Positions 1-5,681 of a stretch of DNA of 5,713 nt are shown one piece after another; the first letter of the stretch is position 1; each line of letters begins with the position of its first letter. This stretch comes from Burkholderiales bacterium. Lineage in GTDB: Bacteria > Pseudomonadota > Gammaproteobacteria > Burkholderiales > Burkholderiaceae_E. Where the stretch lies: the NCBI GenBank assembly GCA_020348765.1, contig CP070753.1:1332269-1337981 (forward strand), in the 5' to 3' direction. A program made the translations under genes and the position numbers. The notes beneath the pieces are model-generated. The model worked only from the letters and a program-made list of their open reading frames with translations, ran no database searches and was not told where the DNA came from.

Positions 1-91
1 AATCCAGCACGTACTTTGGGTCGTCCAGGATCCGGGTGCAGCTGCGGATCACGATCTCCTCGTCGTCGACGATCAGTATCCTGGCGCTCAT
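1..91 (-). CDS. Response regulator, N-terminal fragment (receiver domain start)
   Basis: Only the first 30 codons are inside the window, and the gene continues beyond base 1. The translation begins MSARILIVDDEEIVIRSCTR, the typical first strand and acidic pocket of a receiver (CheY-like) domain, with D9 and D10 as Mg-binding acids. The ATG (89-91 read on the minus strand) overlaps the TGA of the upstream histidine kinase in an ATGA arrangement. The two proteins are therefore probably translationally coupled and form a cognate pair. No clear Shine-Dalgarno sequence is visible before the ATG, which fits coupling. The phosphoacceptor Asp and any output domain lie outside, so an NtrC-type regulator and a stand-alone receiver are both possible. 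Confidence 0.85.
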   Translation of the reverse strand, partial: MSARILIVDDEEIVIRSCTRILDDPKYVLD

Positions 92-1725
92 GATTCGAAG
101 TGGCTGGTACCGGGATCGGCCTCGGCAAACGGCGATGCAGTCGGCAACTGTACCCTGAACGTCGAGCCCTCGCCGACCGCGCTCTCGACCTTGATCGAGC
201 CGCCGTGCGCCTTGACGATGCCGTAGCTGACCGAAAGGCCCAATCCGGTTCCCTTGCCCACCTGCTTTGAGGTGAAGAACGGGTCGAAGATGCGCTGCAG
301 GTTCTGTTCCGGGATGCCGCAGCCGGTGTCCTTGATCGAGACCTCGACCATCGCCGGTGCGTCGGGTCTCTGCGGCTGCGCCTCGGGCGCGAGCAGACGG
401 CTTCGCACCAGGACGTTGCCGCTGCCCTCGATGGCCTGGGTCGCGTTGACCAGGATGTTCATGACGACCTGCTTGATCAGGTCCGCGTCGCCCCAGACCT
501 TGGGCAGGTCCGGGGCCAGGCGGGTCTTGATCTCGATGTTCTGCAGCGTGGCCGGGTTGGCGACGAACCGCACCACTTCCTCGATCAACGCGTTCAGGTC
601 GACAAAGCCCTCGGTCGGGACCTTTTCGCGGGCGAAGTCGAGCAGCCTGCGGATGATGCTGGCGCACCGCTTGGTCTCGCGGATGACCAGATCCAGGTCT
701 TCGGCCTCGGCGCTGTCGGGCGGCATCTTCTTGCGCAACAGCGTCGTGAAGGTCAGGACGCCGGTCAGCGGGTTGTTCAACTCGTGGGCGACGCCCGAGG
801 CCAGCAGGCCGACCGACGCCAGCTTCTCTCCGTGCGCGATTTCGCGTTCGGCGACACGCAGCTCGCGCGTGCGTTCGGCGACCTTCTCCTCCAGCGTCTG
901 CACCAGGTCCCTGAGCTCGCCCATCGTGTTCTTCAGCGCCGCGCTCATGTGGTTGAACGACTGCGCGACGCGACCGAATTCGTCGGCGCTGCGCACCGGC
1001 AGCTGGTGCTCGAGGTCGCCCGAGGAAATCTTGCGCGCGCCCGTGTTCAGGTCCTTCAGCGGCACGTAGATGAGCCGCTGGAACAGCAGCCCGACGCCTG
1101 CGGCCACGAGCAGGATGATCCCCGCTGACAGCCCGAAGATGAACAGCCCGTGGCTGCGCAGCGTCTCGTCGATCTCGTCGAGCGAATACGCGACGTCGAC
1201 CACGCCGAGCACGGACTGGGTGGGGCGGTGCTCGTGGCACTCGGCTTCCGAGCAGGAGCTCTCGTTGCGGATCGGCGCCATCGTCGCGAGCAGCCGATGG
1301 CCGCCGCCGTCGGTGTAGATGCGCCAGCGCTTCTCCTGGGCGAGCCGGCTCAGCGGCTCGCTGGTCTCGTGGCAGCGCACGCAGGGCTCGTCCTCCTGCT
1401 CCACCGAATGCCCGGCCTCGTCCTTGTGCTTCGAGTGCACGATCGTGCCGTCCTTGTTCAGCACGCGGACGCGCTCGATGCCGGCCTGACGGCTGATGTC
1501 CCGGATGATCTGCTCGGCGACTTCGCGCTCGTTGACGAGCATCGCGAAGCGCGTGCTCCTGACGATCAGCTCCGCGCTCTGGGTTGCCTGCCGGCCAATC
1601 TCGCCCTGCAGCAGGGCCTTCTCGTACTCGACGATGAGGTACGGCAGCAGGAATGCCACCGGTGCCAGCGCGAGGATCAGGTACAGGCCGACCTTGAGCC
1701 TGAGATTGAGATTGCGCCGAAACAT
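88..1725 (-). CDS. Membrane sensor histidine kinase with periplasmic di-haem c-type domain
   Basis: A 545-residue protein that should autophosphorylate on His and pass phosphate to the overlapping response regulator. Domains in order: membrane helix at about 12-32; periplasmic sensor 33-191; second helix about 193-216; HAMP about 216-270; coiled coil 263-300; HisKA with H314 in GVAHELNNPL; HATPase about 412-530. The ATPase boxes are intact: N423 and N427 (N box), D466-G470 (G1), DPFF at 481-484 (F box) and GKGTGLGL at 490-497 (G2). The sensor has CVRCH at 115-119 and a CX4CH motif at 158-164, both classical covalent haem c attachment patterns, so it probably senses redox state or a diatomic gas. 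The H-E-L-N-N-P-L phosphoacceptor motif resembles NtrB/DctB-like kinases. The chosen ATG places MFRRNLNLRLK directly before the first helix; its ribosome binding site is weak. Haem binding is inferred from the motifs. The cognate signal is unknown. Confidence 0.93.
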   Translation of the reverse strand: MFRRNLNLRLKVGLYLILALAPVAFLLPYLIVEYEKALLQGEIGRQATQSAELIVRSTRFAMLVNEREVAEQIIRDISRQAGIERVRVLNKDGTIVHSKHKDEAGHSVEQEDEPCVRCHETSEPLSRLAQEKRWRIYTDGGGHRLLATMAPIRNESSCSEAECHEHRPTQSVLGVVDVAYSLDEIDETLRSHGLFIFGLSAGIILLVAAGVGLLFQRLIYVPLKDLNTGARKISSGDLEHQLPVRSADEFGRVAQSFNHMSAALKNTMGELRDLVQTLEEKVAERTRELRVAEREIAHGEKLASVGLLASGVAHELNNPLTGVLTFTTLLRKKMPPDSAEAEDLDLVIRETKRCASIIRRLLDFAREKVPTEGFVDLNALIEEVVRFVANPATLQNIEIKTRLAPDLPKVWGDADLIKQVVMNILVNATQAIEGSGNVLVRSRLLAPEAQPQRPDAPAMVEVSIKDTGCGIPEQNLQRIFDPFFTSKQVGKGTGLGLSVSYGIVKAHGGSIKVESAVGEGSTFRVQLPTASPFAEADPGTSHFES

Positions 1726-2178: not shown

Positions 2179-4401
2179 ATGCAGGCGACCCACGGATTGA
2201 CGCGCGCTCGCAGCGACGCGGGCTTCTTCCCGCGCGTGCTGCGAGCGCTCGATTGGCGGCGGCTGGCAGCCGCGGCCCTGGTGGCGCTGTTGCTGTCGCT
2301 CGGGGCCCTGGTCAGCCCGGCGCTGTGGGATTTCCTTTCGCCGGCCGAGGTGGCGCTGGCGTGGCTCGAACACCTCTTGGAGCTGGGCGTGATCGCGGCC
2401 GCCTTGCTCTGCGTCTTCGTGCTGCTCGACGAAGCGCTACCGCGCACGTTGCCACTGCGGCTCGGAATCGTTTCCGGTGCGCTGCTCGGGCTGTCCGCGG
2501 TGCTCTCCGTGCTGCTGCACGTCTACTATGCGGGCGGGGTCGCGCACCTGCCGCCGCTGCTGCGCATGCTGGCCGACTCGCTTCGGTGGGGGTTGCCGGC
2601 CGTGTTCCTGGTGCTGATCGCCGACGTGCACCGTCGGGCGCTCCAGGCCGCATCGGAAGCTCAGAGCGCCCAGCTCGCCCGTTCGCAGCTCGAGGAGGCC
2701 GAGGGCGAACAGCGGCTCGCGCTGCTGCAGGCGCAGATCGAGCCGCACTTCCTGTTCAACGTGCTGGGCAACGTGCGGCGCCTGTACCGCACGCGACCGC
2801 AGGACGGCGCGCAGGCGGTCGACAGCCTGATGCAGTACCTGCGGACCGCTTTCTCGCAATTGCGCAGCCGCCACGGATCGCTCGGTGACGAAATCGCCGT
2901 GGTACAGGCCTATGTGGATCTGTTCCGGTTGCGCATGGGCGGAAAGCTCGATTTGTCGGTCGGGGTCGAGCCCGGTCTACGGGATGCGGATTTCCCGCCG
3001 ATGCTCCTGATGACGCTGGTCGAGAACGCGATCAAGCACGGGCTTCAGCCCGCCGGCGGGGGGCGTATCGAAGTGCTCGCCCGACGCAACGGGCCGGTGC
3101 TCGAGGTTTCCGTTCAGGACGACGGCGTGGGCTTCGGGGCCGTGGCCAGCAGTGGCACCGGGGTCGGTCTCGCCAACTTGAGGCGCCAGCTCGCTGCACG
3201 CTACGGCAACCAGGCCCGGCTGACGCTTCAGGCGGGAGATCCCCGAGGTGCCCGCGCGACGATTTCGCTGCCGTTTCAGGCGCGGCGGGTCGCCGGCCCC
3301 GGGGCCGGCGAGGCGGTTGCCGACACGACGCGTCCCGAGCCGGCTGCCGGATCCGGGCAAGGACCGCGTCCCCAGCGGCCGGTCGCGCGCCGGAACTCGA
3401 TCGCGGTCGCGGGGCTGCTCGCCTTCGCCGCGCCGCTGACCTACTTCGTCGGGGCGCTGAGCGTGGTGGCTTCGGCTCCGGCCGAGGCGGTCGCGCGGCT
3501 GGGCCTGTGGTGGCTGCTCTACGGGGCGGCCCTGTGGTGTCTGTTGCTGGCCGCCGGTCACGCCTGCGAGCGCTGGTGCCGCGGCCCGGGGCGGTATCGG
3601 GTCGCGGCGATGTGGCTAGCGGCCGCGTGCTCGACGGCGGCACTGGCCAACGCGTCGACGCTCGGACGTGTCGAAGTGCTGCTCGAACTGGGGCTCGTCC
3701 ACGGTGCCGTCACGGCACAGCTCTATGCGTTCGCGTCCTCGCTCGTCATGGCGCTGCTCTACTTCTTCCACTTGCGTCGGAGCCGAGCGCACGAACGGGC
3801 CGCGGCGCGCCTGGCGGCTGCCCAGGCAGCCCAGCGCGAATCCCGGTTCCGGCTGGTGCAGGCGCGCCTGCAGGAATTGCGGGCGCGCGTCGATCCGCAG
3901 TTCCTGTACGCGATGCTCGATACGACGCGCTCGATGTACCAACGGAGCGCTGCGCAGGGCGAGCGCTTCCTGGACGCACTGATCGCGTTCCTGCGTTCCG
4001 CGCTGCCGCAGCTGCGAACGACGTCCTCGAGTCTGGCGCGAGAGCTCGATCTGGCGCGTGCGTTCGTCAGGCTGCACGCTCTGGCAGGCGCTGCCGTGTC
4101 CGACGTCGTGGTCGACGTCGACGCCGCCGTCAGGCATGCGCGCCTTCCGCCGGGCGTGCTGACGACGCTGCTCGAGGCTGTCGTTGCCGGCGGCGGCGGT
4201 CCGTGCCGACTGAGCGCAACGCGCACCGACGATCGGTGTCGGTTAACCTTGCGGTCTCGTACGCCGCCCTCCGACGCATCCGTGGCGCAGGTTCGCTCGC
4301 TGCTGGGCGCGGTCTACGGGGCTTCGGGAAGGCTCGAAGTCGAGCGCGCGGACGCTGCCTTCGATGTCATCGTGGAGATTCCCCATGAGTTCGCCCGCTA
4401 G
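2179..4401 (+). CDS. Tandem LytS-type sensor histidine kinase with degenerate second half
   Basis: A 740-residue membrane protein with two successive copies of one architecture: about four membrane helices, a coiled coil, a His_kinase (LytS/YehU-type) phosphoacceptor region and an ATPase region. Half one has helices at about 28-47, 60-84, 93-116 and 136-150, then QIEPHFLFN with phosphoacceptor H190, the N box VENAIKHG (N283, H287), DDGVGFG from 314 and GTGVGLANL from 326. It looks fully active. A Pro/Gly/Ala-rich linker (about 367-406) leads to half two, with helices near 407-429, 440-460, 474-494 and 511-531. Half two reads RVDPQFLYAML, with Gln574 where His should be; LLEAVVAGG replaces the N box and the glycine boxes are gone, so it is a predicted pseudokinase. 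The halves are clearly homologous (15 of 37 identities in the segment after the His motif). The frame is open throughout. The stop overlaps the downstream LytTR regulator gene by 17 bases, marking it as the partner. The signal is unknown. Confidence 0.9.
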   Translation: MQATHGLTRARSDAGFFPRVLRALDWRRLAAAALVALLLSLGALVSPALWDFLSPAEVALAWLEHLLELGVIAAALLCVFVLLDEALPRTLPLRLGIVSGALLGLSAVLSVLLHVYYAGGVAHLPPLLRMLADSLRWGLPAVFLVLIADVHRRALQAASEAQSAQLARSQLEEAEGEQRLALLQAQIEPHFLFNVLGNVRRLYRTRPQDGAQAVDSLMQYLRTAFSQLRSRHGSLGDEIAVVQAYVDLFRLRMGGKLDLSVGVEPGLRDADFPPMLLMTLVENAIKHGLQPAGGGRIEVLARRNGPVLEVSVQDDGVGFGAVASSGTGVGLANLRRQLAARYGNQARLTLQAGDPRGARATISLPFQARRVAGPGAGEAVADTTRPEPAAGSGQGPRPQRPVARRNSIAVAGLLAFAAPLTYFVGALSVVASAPAEAVARLGLWWLLYGAALWCLLLAAGHACERWCRGPGRYRVAAMWLAAACSTAALANASTLGRVEVLLELGLVHGAVTAQLYAFASSLVMALLYFFHLRRSRAHERAAARLAAAQAAQRESRFRLVQARLQELRARVDPQFLYAMLDTTRSMYQRSAAQGERFLDALIAFLRSALPQLRTTSSSLARELDLARAFVRLHALAGAAVSDVVVDVDAAVRHARLPPGVLTTLLEAVVAGGGGPCRLSATRTDDRCRLTLRSRTPPSDASVAQVRSLLGAVYGASGRLEVERADAAFDVIVEIPHEFAR
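4374..4377 (+). promoter_or_regulatory. Ribosome binding site of the LytTR regulator
   Basis: GGAG lies 7 bases before the ATG at 4385, inside the end of the kinase gene. It supports 4385 over the earlier in-frame ATG at 4364, which has no good site and would add only seven residues (MSSWRFP). Confidence 0.6.
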
Positions 4402-5161
4402 CGGCTCGACAGCCGCGCCGAAGGCAATCCTGGCCGAGGACGAACCGCTGCTGGCCGAAGAGCTGCAAGAGCTGCTGCGCGCGCTGTGGCCGCAGCTCGA
4501 GATCGTGGCTCGCGCCGGCGACGGCGTCGAAGCGCTGCACGCGATCGAGACGCATCGTCCGGACGTCGCGTTCCTCGACATCCACATGCCGCTGATGACC
4601 GGCCTCGAGGTGGCGCGGCAGGTCACCGGGCGCTGCCACGTGGCTTTCATCACGTCCTACGACGCGCATGCAGTCGAGGCATTCGAGGCCGGTGCGATCG
4701 ACTACGTGCTGAAGCCGCCGACGGTCGCGCGCATTGCAGCGACCGTCGAGCGGCTCAAAGCGCGCATCGCGCAGCCGCCGCCGGATCTGGGCGCCGCGCT
4801 GCAGAGCCTGGCGCAGGGCGGGCCGCGGGCACCGCGCTACCTGCAGTGGATCAACGCCTCGCGCGGTACGTCGGTGCGCCTGATCACCGTGGACGAGATC
4901 CTGTACTTCAAGTCCGACCAGAAGTACACGCTGGTGGTCACGGCGGACACGGAAGCGCTGATCAAGAAGACGATCAAGACCCTGAGCGGCGAGCTCGACC
5001 CGTCGATGTTCTGGCAGGTCCACCGCTCGACGATCGTCAACGTGCACGCGATCGACAGCGTGATCCGCGACGATCGCGGTGGCCTGTCGCTGCGCCTGAA
5101 GGAGCGGCCCGAGCGGCTGCCGGTCAGCGAGGCCTACCATCACCTGTTCCACCAGATGTGA
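4385..5161 (+). CDS. LytTR-family response regulator (AlgR/LytR type)
   Basis: A 258-residue DNA-binding response regulator, presumably phosphorylated by the tandem kinase whose gene it overlaps. The receiver domain spans about 14-130. It has the acidic pocket E18-D19-E20, phosphoacceptor D65 in FLDIHMP, switch Thr90 in FITSYD and K110 in DYVLKPP. All catalytic positions are present, so it should be phosphorylatable. A short linker follows, then a LytTR domain at about 150-254. This shows the family pattern VDEILYFKSDQKYT, then MFWQVHRSTIVNV, and ends in a conserved region near VSEAYHHLF. LytTR domains bind DNA through beta strands and recognise direct repeats. Family members control alginate, autolysis, competence, bacteriocins and other functions; which applies here cannot be told. 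The final Met codon and stop lie in the first unit of a 29-bp tandem repeat. Confidence 0.95.
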   Translation: MSSPASGSTAAPKAILAEDEPLLAEELQELLRALWPQLEIVARAGDGVEALHAIETHRPDVAFLDIHMPLMTGLEVARQVTGRCHVAFITSYDAHAVEAFEAGAIDYVLKPPTVARIAATVERLKARIAQPPPDLGAALQSLAQGGPRAPRYLQWINASRGTSVRLITVDEILYFKSDQKYTLVVTADTEALIKKTIKTLSGELDPSMFWQVHRSTIVNVHAIDSVIRDDRGGLSLRLKERPERLPVSEAYHHLFHQM

Positions 5162-5241
5162 CGCCCGGCCCGCCGGCCGAATCGATGTGACCCCCGGCCC
5201 GCCGGCCGGATCGATGTGGCGCCCGGCCCGCCGGCCGGATC
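5155..5241 (+). repeat. Three 29-bp tandem repeats, each able to form a hairpin
   Basis: The units are 5155-5183, 5184-5212 and 5213-5241, directly adjoining and differing at only a few positions. Each starts GATGTG and ends in ATC. The core CCGGCC-CGCC-GGCCGG gives a 6-bp stem with a 4-base loop; it is perfect in units two and three, and the outer pair is lost in unit one (GGCCGA). Unit one contains the TGA stop of the LytTR regulator, so the array probably expanded from the gene's 3' end by slippage or unequal exchange. It fills most of the gap before the cupin gene. The hairpins could attenuate transcription or protect the mRNA end. No U-tract follows, so a classical terminator is unlikely. 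It is not CRISPR-like because there are no spacers. Confidence 0.9.
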
Positions 5242-5262
5242 GCGACGGCAAGTGACCCGATC

Positions 5263-5273: not shown

Positions 5274-5681
5274 ATGAAGTCCGGAAAGCGCAACACGCGC
5301 CGCGAGGCATTGGCAATGCTCGCCGCCTTCGGCGTCGCGCCCGAAGTGCTCGCGCAGGACGCGGTGACGACCGACCCGCGGTCGTTTCGCGTGGTGCTCG
5401 AGAACGAGCGCGTGCGCGTCGTCGAGTACAACAGCAAGCCGGGCCTCGGCGTCTGCGGCCAGGGCATGCACTCGCACCCGGACCGCGTGACGGTCGTCCT
5501 GACGCCGGCCAAGGTCAGGGTGACGAACGCCAAGGGCGAGTCGGTCGTACGCGACATCGAGCCGGGGCAGGTGTTCTTCGCGCGGGCCGAAACGCACGCG
5601 GCCGAGAACGTCGGCGGCGCCGGCGCACGGATCTACATCATCGAGCTCAAGGACGGGCAGTTCGGGTCGCGAACCGGCTGA
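5274..5681 (+). CDS. Small exported cupin-domain protein
   Basis: A 135-residue protein with an N-terminal signal followed by a single cupin barrel. The N-terminus has T8-R9-R10-E11-A12-L13, close to the twin-arginine consensus, then a short apolar stretch and a likely cleavage after VLA (residue 27). Export by Tat or Sec is therefore plausible, with a mature chain of about 108 residues. The cupin shows GMHSHPD with metal-ligand candidates H66 and H68, but D70 replaces the usual Glu region. The second motif follows as PGQVFF then AETHAAEN, where H108 and N112 fit the H-X3-N pattern. A mononuclear metal site is likely. Substrate and reaction are not identifiable. It lies 112 bases after the LytTR regulator in the same direction, so it may be co-transcribed through the repeats or be a target of that regulator. 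A purely structural or binding role is also possible. Confidence 0.85.
   Translation: MKSGKRNTRREALAMLAAFGVAPEVLAQDAVTTDPRSFRVVLENERVRVVEYNSKPGLGVCGQGMHSHPDRVTVVLTPAKVRVTNAKGESVVRDIEPGQVFFARAETHAAENVGGAGARIYIIELKDGQFGSRTG

Follow-up and report, generated by a model that had tools for sequence, protein, structure and literature searches.

The window analyzed here is a stretch of 5,713 nucleotides from a Burkholderiales bacterium (GCA_020348765.1, contig CP070753.1), and it contains a gene that joins a LytS-type kinase module and a degenerate second module in one reading frame. It belongs to a wider kinase/pseudokinase system, of which it represents the fused state: a live and a dead kinase module are inherited together, either as one protein or as neighboring genes, alongside a LytTR response regulator. 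On balance, the comparisons of the gene and its relatives favor a LytS-type kinase fused to its own degenerate partner, the two likely pairing through their dimerization and histidine phosphotransfer (DHp) domains as an asymmetric receptor for the adjacent LytTR regulator. Because the halves are separate genes in many related bacteria, side by side in the sampled cases, the dead half has probably been kept as a partner and additional sensor and is probably not a defective remnant.

An earlier sequence-only reading of the window had proposed that one unbroken frame encodes two kinase modules. Indeed, a single open frame runs from 2179 to 4401, and a Pfam scan of the 740-residue protein detects PF06580 twice and HATPase_c once (residues 276 to 367). 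The start column of the protein is common to 14 of the 17 other rows in alignment A1. We scored eight key residues: His190, Asn283, Asp314, Gly316, Gly318, Gly326, Gly328, and Gly330. As that reading had claimed, the first module keeps the phosphoacceptor His, the N box, and the glycine boxes (8 of 8 residues), and the second keeps none of the eight, with Gln574 in place of the His and no ATP-binding boxes. Both codons were read directly off the sequence (His190, 2746-2748; Gln574, 3898-3900). Module 1 thus has the catalytic set of LytS/YehU-type kinases (PF06580 plus HATPase_c) and module 2 does not, suggesting that only module 1 would bind ATP.

The double architecture, for which the sequence-only reading had advised a database search, recurs in relatives. 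One protein search recovered 15 more fused proteins of full length (P0002 to P0016; 48 to 62% identity). A profile search added at least 99 new standalone kinases of about 366 to 394 residues (P0084 to P0182; best 120 of 527 matches), and a search with the second half yielded at least 119 standalone pseudokinases (P0183 to P0301; best 120 of 296 matches). Split orthologues had been named beforehand as grounds for rejecting the fusion. They exist and are the commoner form, and so support a conserved pair rather than an artefact. A close form occurs in 3 of 74 genomes of the family (G000, G006, and G005). An order-wide search of 399 genomes with a two-row pseudokinase alignment matched 255, mostly ordinary active LytS kinases, so that this number is not a count of pseudokinases; no genome on that list except the window's exceeded about 110 bits. 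Eight other long PF06580 proteins (P0035, P0072, P0075, P0077, P0078, P0079, P0081, and P0082) were ruled out as further double kinases, each having a single PF06580 stretch, with two stretches found in each of the control rows P0014 and L011. In a plasmid search with the L011 protein, none of the 206 matching records covered 80% of the protein.

Every one of the 115 pair kinases compared (16 fused, 99 listed standalone) has all eight key residues in its kinase module. None of the eight is present in 115 of 135 listed second modules (15 of 16 fused, 100 of 119 standalone); a single key residue survives in 1 fused and 18 standalone proteins, and two, the maximum in this set, in a single standalone protein. 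An aligned His is found in 6 of these 135 second modules and an aligned Asn in 5, never both together, and the columns of the first glycine box (G1) are gapped in all 135. The column of residue 574 reads Q 12, R 3, H 1 in the 16 fused proteins and Q 97, R 10, H 5, G 3, N 2, M 1, K 1 in the 119 listed standalone ones. This composition rules out Gln574 as a conserved functional residue, and the suggestion that the Gln is conserved among orthologues fails with it; the conserved feature is the loss of the catalytic set.

The two modules had also been described as homologous membrane-kinase modules, which stands for the coil, DHp, and catalytic and ATP-binding (CA) parts and not for the membrane parts. 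Profile-profile comparison gives E = 9.4e-20 for the DHp pair and E = 3.2e-10 for the CA pair; three column-shuffled controls and one reversed control of the CA pair were all at E 0.099 or worse. The two transmembrane (TM) profiles show no detectable homology (probability 0.1%, E 0.41), which with 18-sequence profiles is weak evidence of absence, and common ancestry of the membrane parts was dropped as undetectable by this comparison. A structure model of the pseudokinase is confident and kinase-like, with the LytS/YesM-type kinase GanS (6swk) as its best solved match. Module 2 thus has the DHp-CA fold of LytS/YehU-type kinases, and the profile homology and this match together bear out the proposal that the second half retains a kinase fold.

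Among 140 scanned loci, 22 besides the window's have a degenerate second module fused to a live kinase (n = 3; L003, L011, and L082) or adjoining one (n = 19). Counting the window as fused and L007 and L128 once (their open reading frame [ORF] lengths are equal and they are probably one species), the tally is 18 adjacent and 4 fused. Loci L001 and L111 correspond to the gene of the window itself, and L009, L018, and L047 (several ordinary kinases) and L104 and L115 (weak second matches) were not counted as pairs. First modules at all 22 loci have 8 of 8 key residues and second modules 0 to 3, the second module being incomplete or weakly matched at 7 of the 22 (L007, L010, L021, L027, L070, L128, and L138). 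The second modules of L024 and L076 have three key residues each (part of G1, or G1 plus one glycine of the second glycine box, G2), with Arg or Gln for the His, and look like less degenerate stages. In L024 (1534-9697), a TonB-dependent receptor gene is flanked by two kinase/pseudokinase pairs, and the pseudokinase of the second pair keeps DRGAGF.

At 19 of the 22 loci the pair has a LytTR regulator ORF as its neighbor, downstream in 12 and upstream in 7 (L006, L007, L014, L025, L027, L076, and L128); none was seen at L010, L021, and L138, where the available sequence stops nearby. In the window, the fused gene's own operon includes a regulator with receiver and LytTR domains, which overlaps the fused gene by 17 bases and retains the acceptor stretch FLDIHMP in its receiver (both read off the sequence). 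At 12 split loci examined, a 4-base stop/start overlap of the two genes is possible in 9, and gaps of 4 to 9 bases separate them in 3. Further, 27 of the 99 listed standalone kinases share the exact size of their longest contig with a listed pseudokinase, compared with 0 to 2 when sizes are shifted; one of these matches is due to chance (1749 bases, too short for both genes), and 26 were used later.

In a careful tree of 73 modules, built without the seven loci with incomplete or weakly matched second modules, the pair kinases (23) form one clade (support 98/89), as do the pseudokinases (24; 100/98), and the 26 sampled single kinases lie apart from the pair kinases (86/83). Distances among the kinases track those among their partner pseudokinases (r = 0.945) across 48 pairs, 26 of which rest on matching longest-contig size; the highest of 2000 permutations is 0.461. 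Across 46 pseudokinases, mean pairwise identity is 0.77 for the coil, 0.77 for the DHp, 0.65 for the TM part, and 0.55 for the CA domain. Similarly, in the fused set, identity is 0.68 (DHp) and 0.48 (CA) in module 2 and 0.79 and 0.72 in module 1. The would-be pairing part of the dead module is therefore its best conserved and the ATP-binding fold its worst. Conservation in relatives, profile homology, and the pseudokinase model together support the sequence-only reading's kinase/pseudokinase pair.

The nearest known system in its working is FasB/FasC/FasA of group A Streptococcus, which likewise has two kinase-like proteins and one regulator. According to its report, two-hybrid data fit heterodimers rather than homodimers, and FasC is proposed as a pseudokinase that nevertheless keeps and needs its phosphoacceptor His246 (PMC12675982). 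Here, the second-module His is lost in nearly all members (the window has Gln, and a His survives in 1 of 16 fused and 5 of 119 listed standalone proteins), and the Fas proteins are separate genes of a Gram-positive bacterium with six predicted membrane segments each. In group A Streptococcus, RocA is a membrane-bearing pseudokinase that modulates the active sensor kinase CovS; it is described as a separate accessory protein on the CovR/S system, unlike a fused or adjacent, co-inherited LytS-type pair (PMC7028121). DivL-CckA in Caulobacter and the ChrS pseudokinase in Corynebacterium are also cases of dead histidine kinase relatives modulating another kinase, the ChrS CA domain having been lost by a laboratory-selected frameshift, but the accessible portion of the source describes neither as a kinase fused to a pseudokinase and paired with a LytTR regulator (PMC9491836). 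Single-module LytS/YehU-type kinases (PF06580) such as GanS share the DHp-CA architecture of module 1 and the fold of module 2, but have one module with the catalytic residues present. No LytS-type kinase/pseudokinase pair or fusion in Betaproteobacteria was found in the literature searched, which leaves most subscription papers uncovered.

Histidine kinases are textbook homodimers, and to our knowledge only a small number of heterodimers or pseudokinase partners have been described, most of them isolated examples. In the reading we favor, the two halves would pair via their DHp helices, and module 1 would bind ATP and autophosphorylate at His190 (a cis reaction for a 1:1 pair), with the phosphate passing to the adjacent LytTR regulator. 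Module 2 may add a second, different membrane input and position the module 1 catalytic domain through its coil and DHp contact. Fusion would then fix a 1:1 ratio that is otherwise achieved by separate genes with overlapping translation. More tentatively, the protein could be a single-chain asymmetric kinase whose permanent dead partner bears a different sensor, an intramolecular pseudodimer with cis phosphorylation and two inputs on one LytTR regulator, representing a repeatedly fused form of an ancient Betaproteobacteria kinase-pseudokinase-regulator operon. With well over 100 members, one partner always live and the other always dead, in split, fused, and graded intermediate forms, the family makes it testable whether a dead partner adds a second input by replacing half of a dimer and whether a fused chain has to autophosphorylate in cis. 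For structure work, the fused form offers a natural construct of fixed stoichiometry.

Several points weigh against DHp pairing of the two halves. Contact between them is seen in none of the results, the full-length model (from 18 sequences, output without inter-domain error) reaching a predicted TM-score (pTM) of 0.53, and separate kinase-kinase and pseudokinase-pseudokinase homodimers would fit the same data. The likeness to FasC is partial, since FasC retains a required His that this pseudokinase lacks. Support for the pseudokinase clade may be inflated by long branches (L008_C, L056_C, and L011_C), and the distance correlation may stem from shared species history alone.

The best-surviving alternative, which we consider possible though clearly less probable, is that an ordinary module 1 homodimer autophosphorylates, with module 2 outside it as an extra membrane sensor or brake and not as a DHp partner. 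LytS-type kinases are generally taken as homodimers, which fits this arrangement, and the long linker (residues 371-402, predicted to be disordered in the full-length model) need not force intramolecular pairing. However, the coil and DHp are the best conserved parts of module 2, which suggests that it uses a helical pairing surface of its own, although this surface could equally serve pseudokinase homodimers. We regard it as improbable that module 2 serves chiefly as a docking or decoy site for the LytTR regulator, for example by keeping it nearby or holding it in check, instead of acting as a kinase partner. The residues after the His position are alike in both DHps of the window's clade (NVRRLY in the kinase, commonly TVRRLY in the pseudokinase, TTRSMY in the window), at the stretch just past the His where kinases generally contact regulators; this likeness may be mere shared ancestry, though, and is weaker in distant pairs.

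That module 2 is a functionless, decaying relic is very unlikely, even though it evolves more quickly than module 1, no longer has the catalytic set, and is truncated as a second gene in L007/L128. The ratio of nonsynonymous to synonymous substitution rates (dN/dS; counting method, 10 locus pairs, one of them saturated and dS near saturation) is 0.09-0.26 for the first module and 0.18-0.50 for the second, well below 1, and the relic reading was rejected on these values. Module 2 is also open over its length in the 15 fused homologues and at least 119 standalone proteins, its model is confidently kinase-like, and it is co-inherited with a live kinase. The pseudokinase is thus under purifying selection by these estimates, having lost its catalytic residues in orthologues that are themselves so constrained.

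Equally slight is the chance that a sequencing or assembly artefact joined two overlapping genes. Close relatives are split in different reading frames (L083), so that single-base errors could interconvert the states. The two states are interspersed in a quick tree built from 126 kinases (19 fused and 107 split, standalone proteins being labelled by length, with a long-branch warning), with 11 changes, 4 of them forced by well-supported branches; single-base errors in metagenomes could inflate the count of 11. However, every frame of the window linker (3265-3436) is free of stop codons, its one start is an out-of-frame TTG, and residues 366-419 include no in-frame start codon. Correcting for a single missed base would therefore not restore two genes like those of a split relative. 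Because of this linker and the 15 other fused homologues, which include a supported fused subgroup (P0007, P0008, P0009, and L003; SH-like approximate likelihood ratio test [SH-aLRT] 100), the fusion looks real; the artefact was rejected on the linker evidence, and the frameshift or misassembly feared in the sequence-only reading is not borne out. In L003, L011, and L082, in-frame start codons lie in or near the linker, and internal initiation is possible there.

Table 1. Coordinates of the fused gene, its parts, and the adjacent regulator in the window
Feature	Position	Strand	Description
Fused kinase-pseudokinase gene	2179..4401	+	740 aa, uninterrupted reading frame
Module 1 membrane part	2254..2628	+	About residues 26-150; helices predicted by model; no Pfam family
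Module 1 DHp, phosphoacceptor His190	2728..2937	+	PF06580 residues 179-257; His in 115 of 115 listed pair kinases
Module 1 CA/ATPase domain	2938..3279	+	HATPase_c; Asn283 at 3025-3027, DDGVGFG, GTGVGLAN
Pro/Ala-rich linker, site of two-gene fusion	3280..3393	+	Residues 371-402 low-confidence in model
Module 2 membrane part	3400..3777	+	About residues 408-533; no detectable likeness to module 1 membrane part
Module 2 coil and pseudo-DHp with Gln574	3778..4086	+	PF06580 3.6e-9 when second half scanned alone
Module 2 degenerate CA domain	4087..4383	+	CA profile match, predicted kinase fold in model; no N or G box
LytTR response regulator	4385..5161	+	258 aa; Response_reg and LytTR Pfam matches; alternative start at 4364 possible

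A GC-rich unit of 29 bases is present in three tandem copies at 5155-5242, the array beginning at the stop codon of the regulator, and a degenerate 25-base core of this unit occurs at only these three places in the genome. The regulator is followed by a 135-residue protein (5274-5681) with a weak, sub-cut-off match to the mannose-6-phosphate isomerase C-terminal (cupin-like) family, and a similar-looking small gene follows the regulator in L002, L003 (4453-4851), L004, and L142. The four small genes that follow the regulator in L003 and L142, the L003 copy included, gave no Pfam family. The small protein is a possible target. Genome G000, one 3.02 Mb contig, scored 57% complete, which is low for its size. 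Upstream of the fused gene and in the opposite direction (88-1725, minus strand) lies a HAMP-HisKA-HATPase sensor kinase; by eye, it carries two CxxCH motifs, in stretches (CVRCH and CSEAECH) that look like haem-binding sites, although the latter departs from a strict CxxCH.
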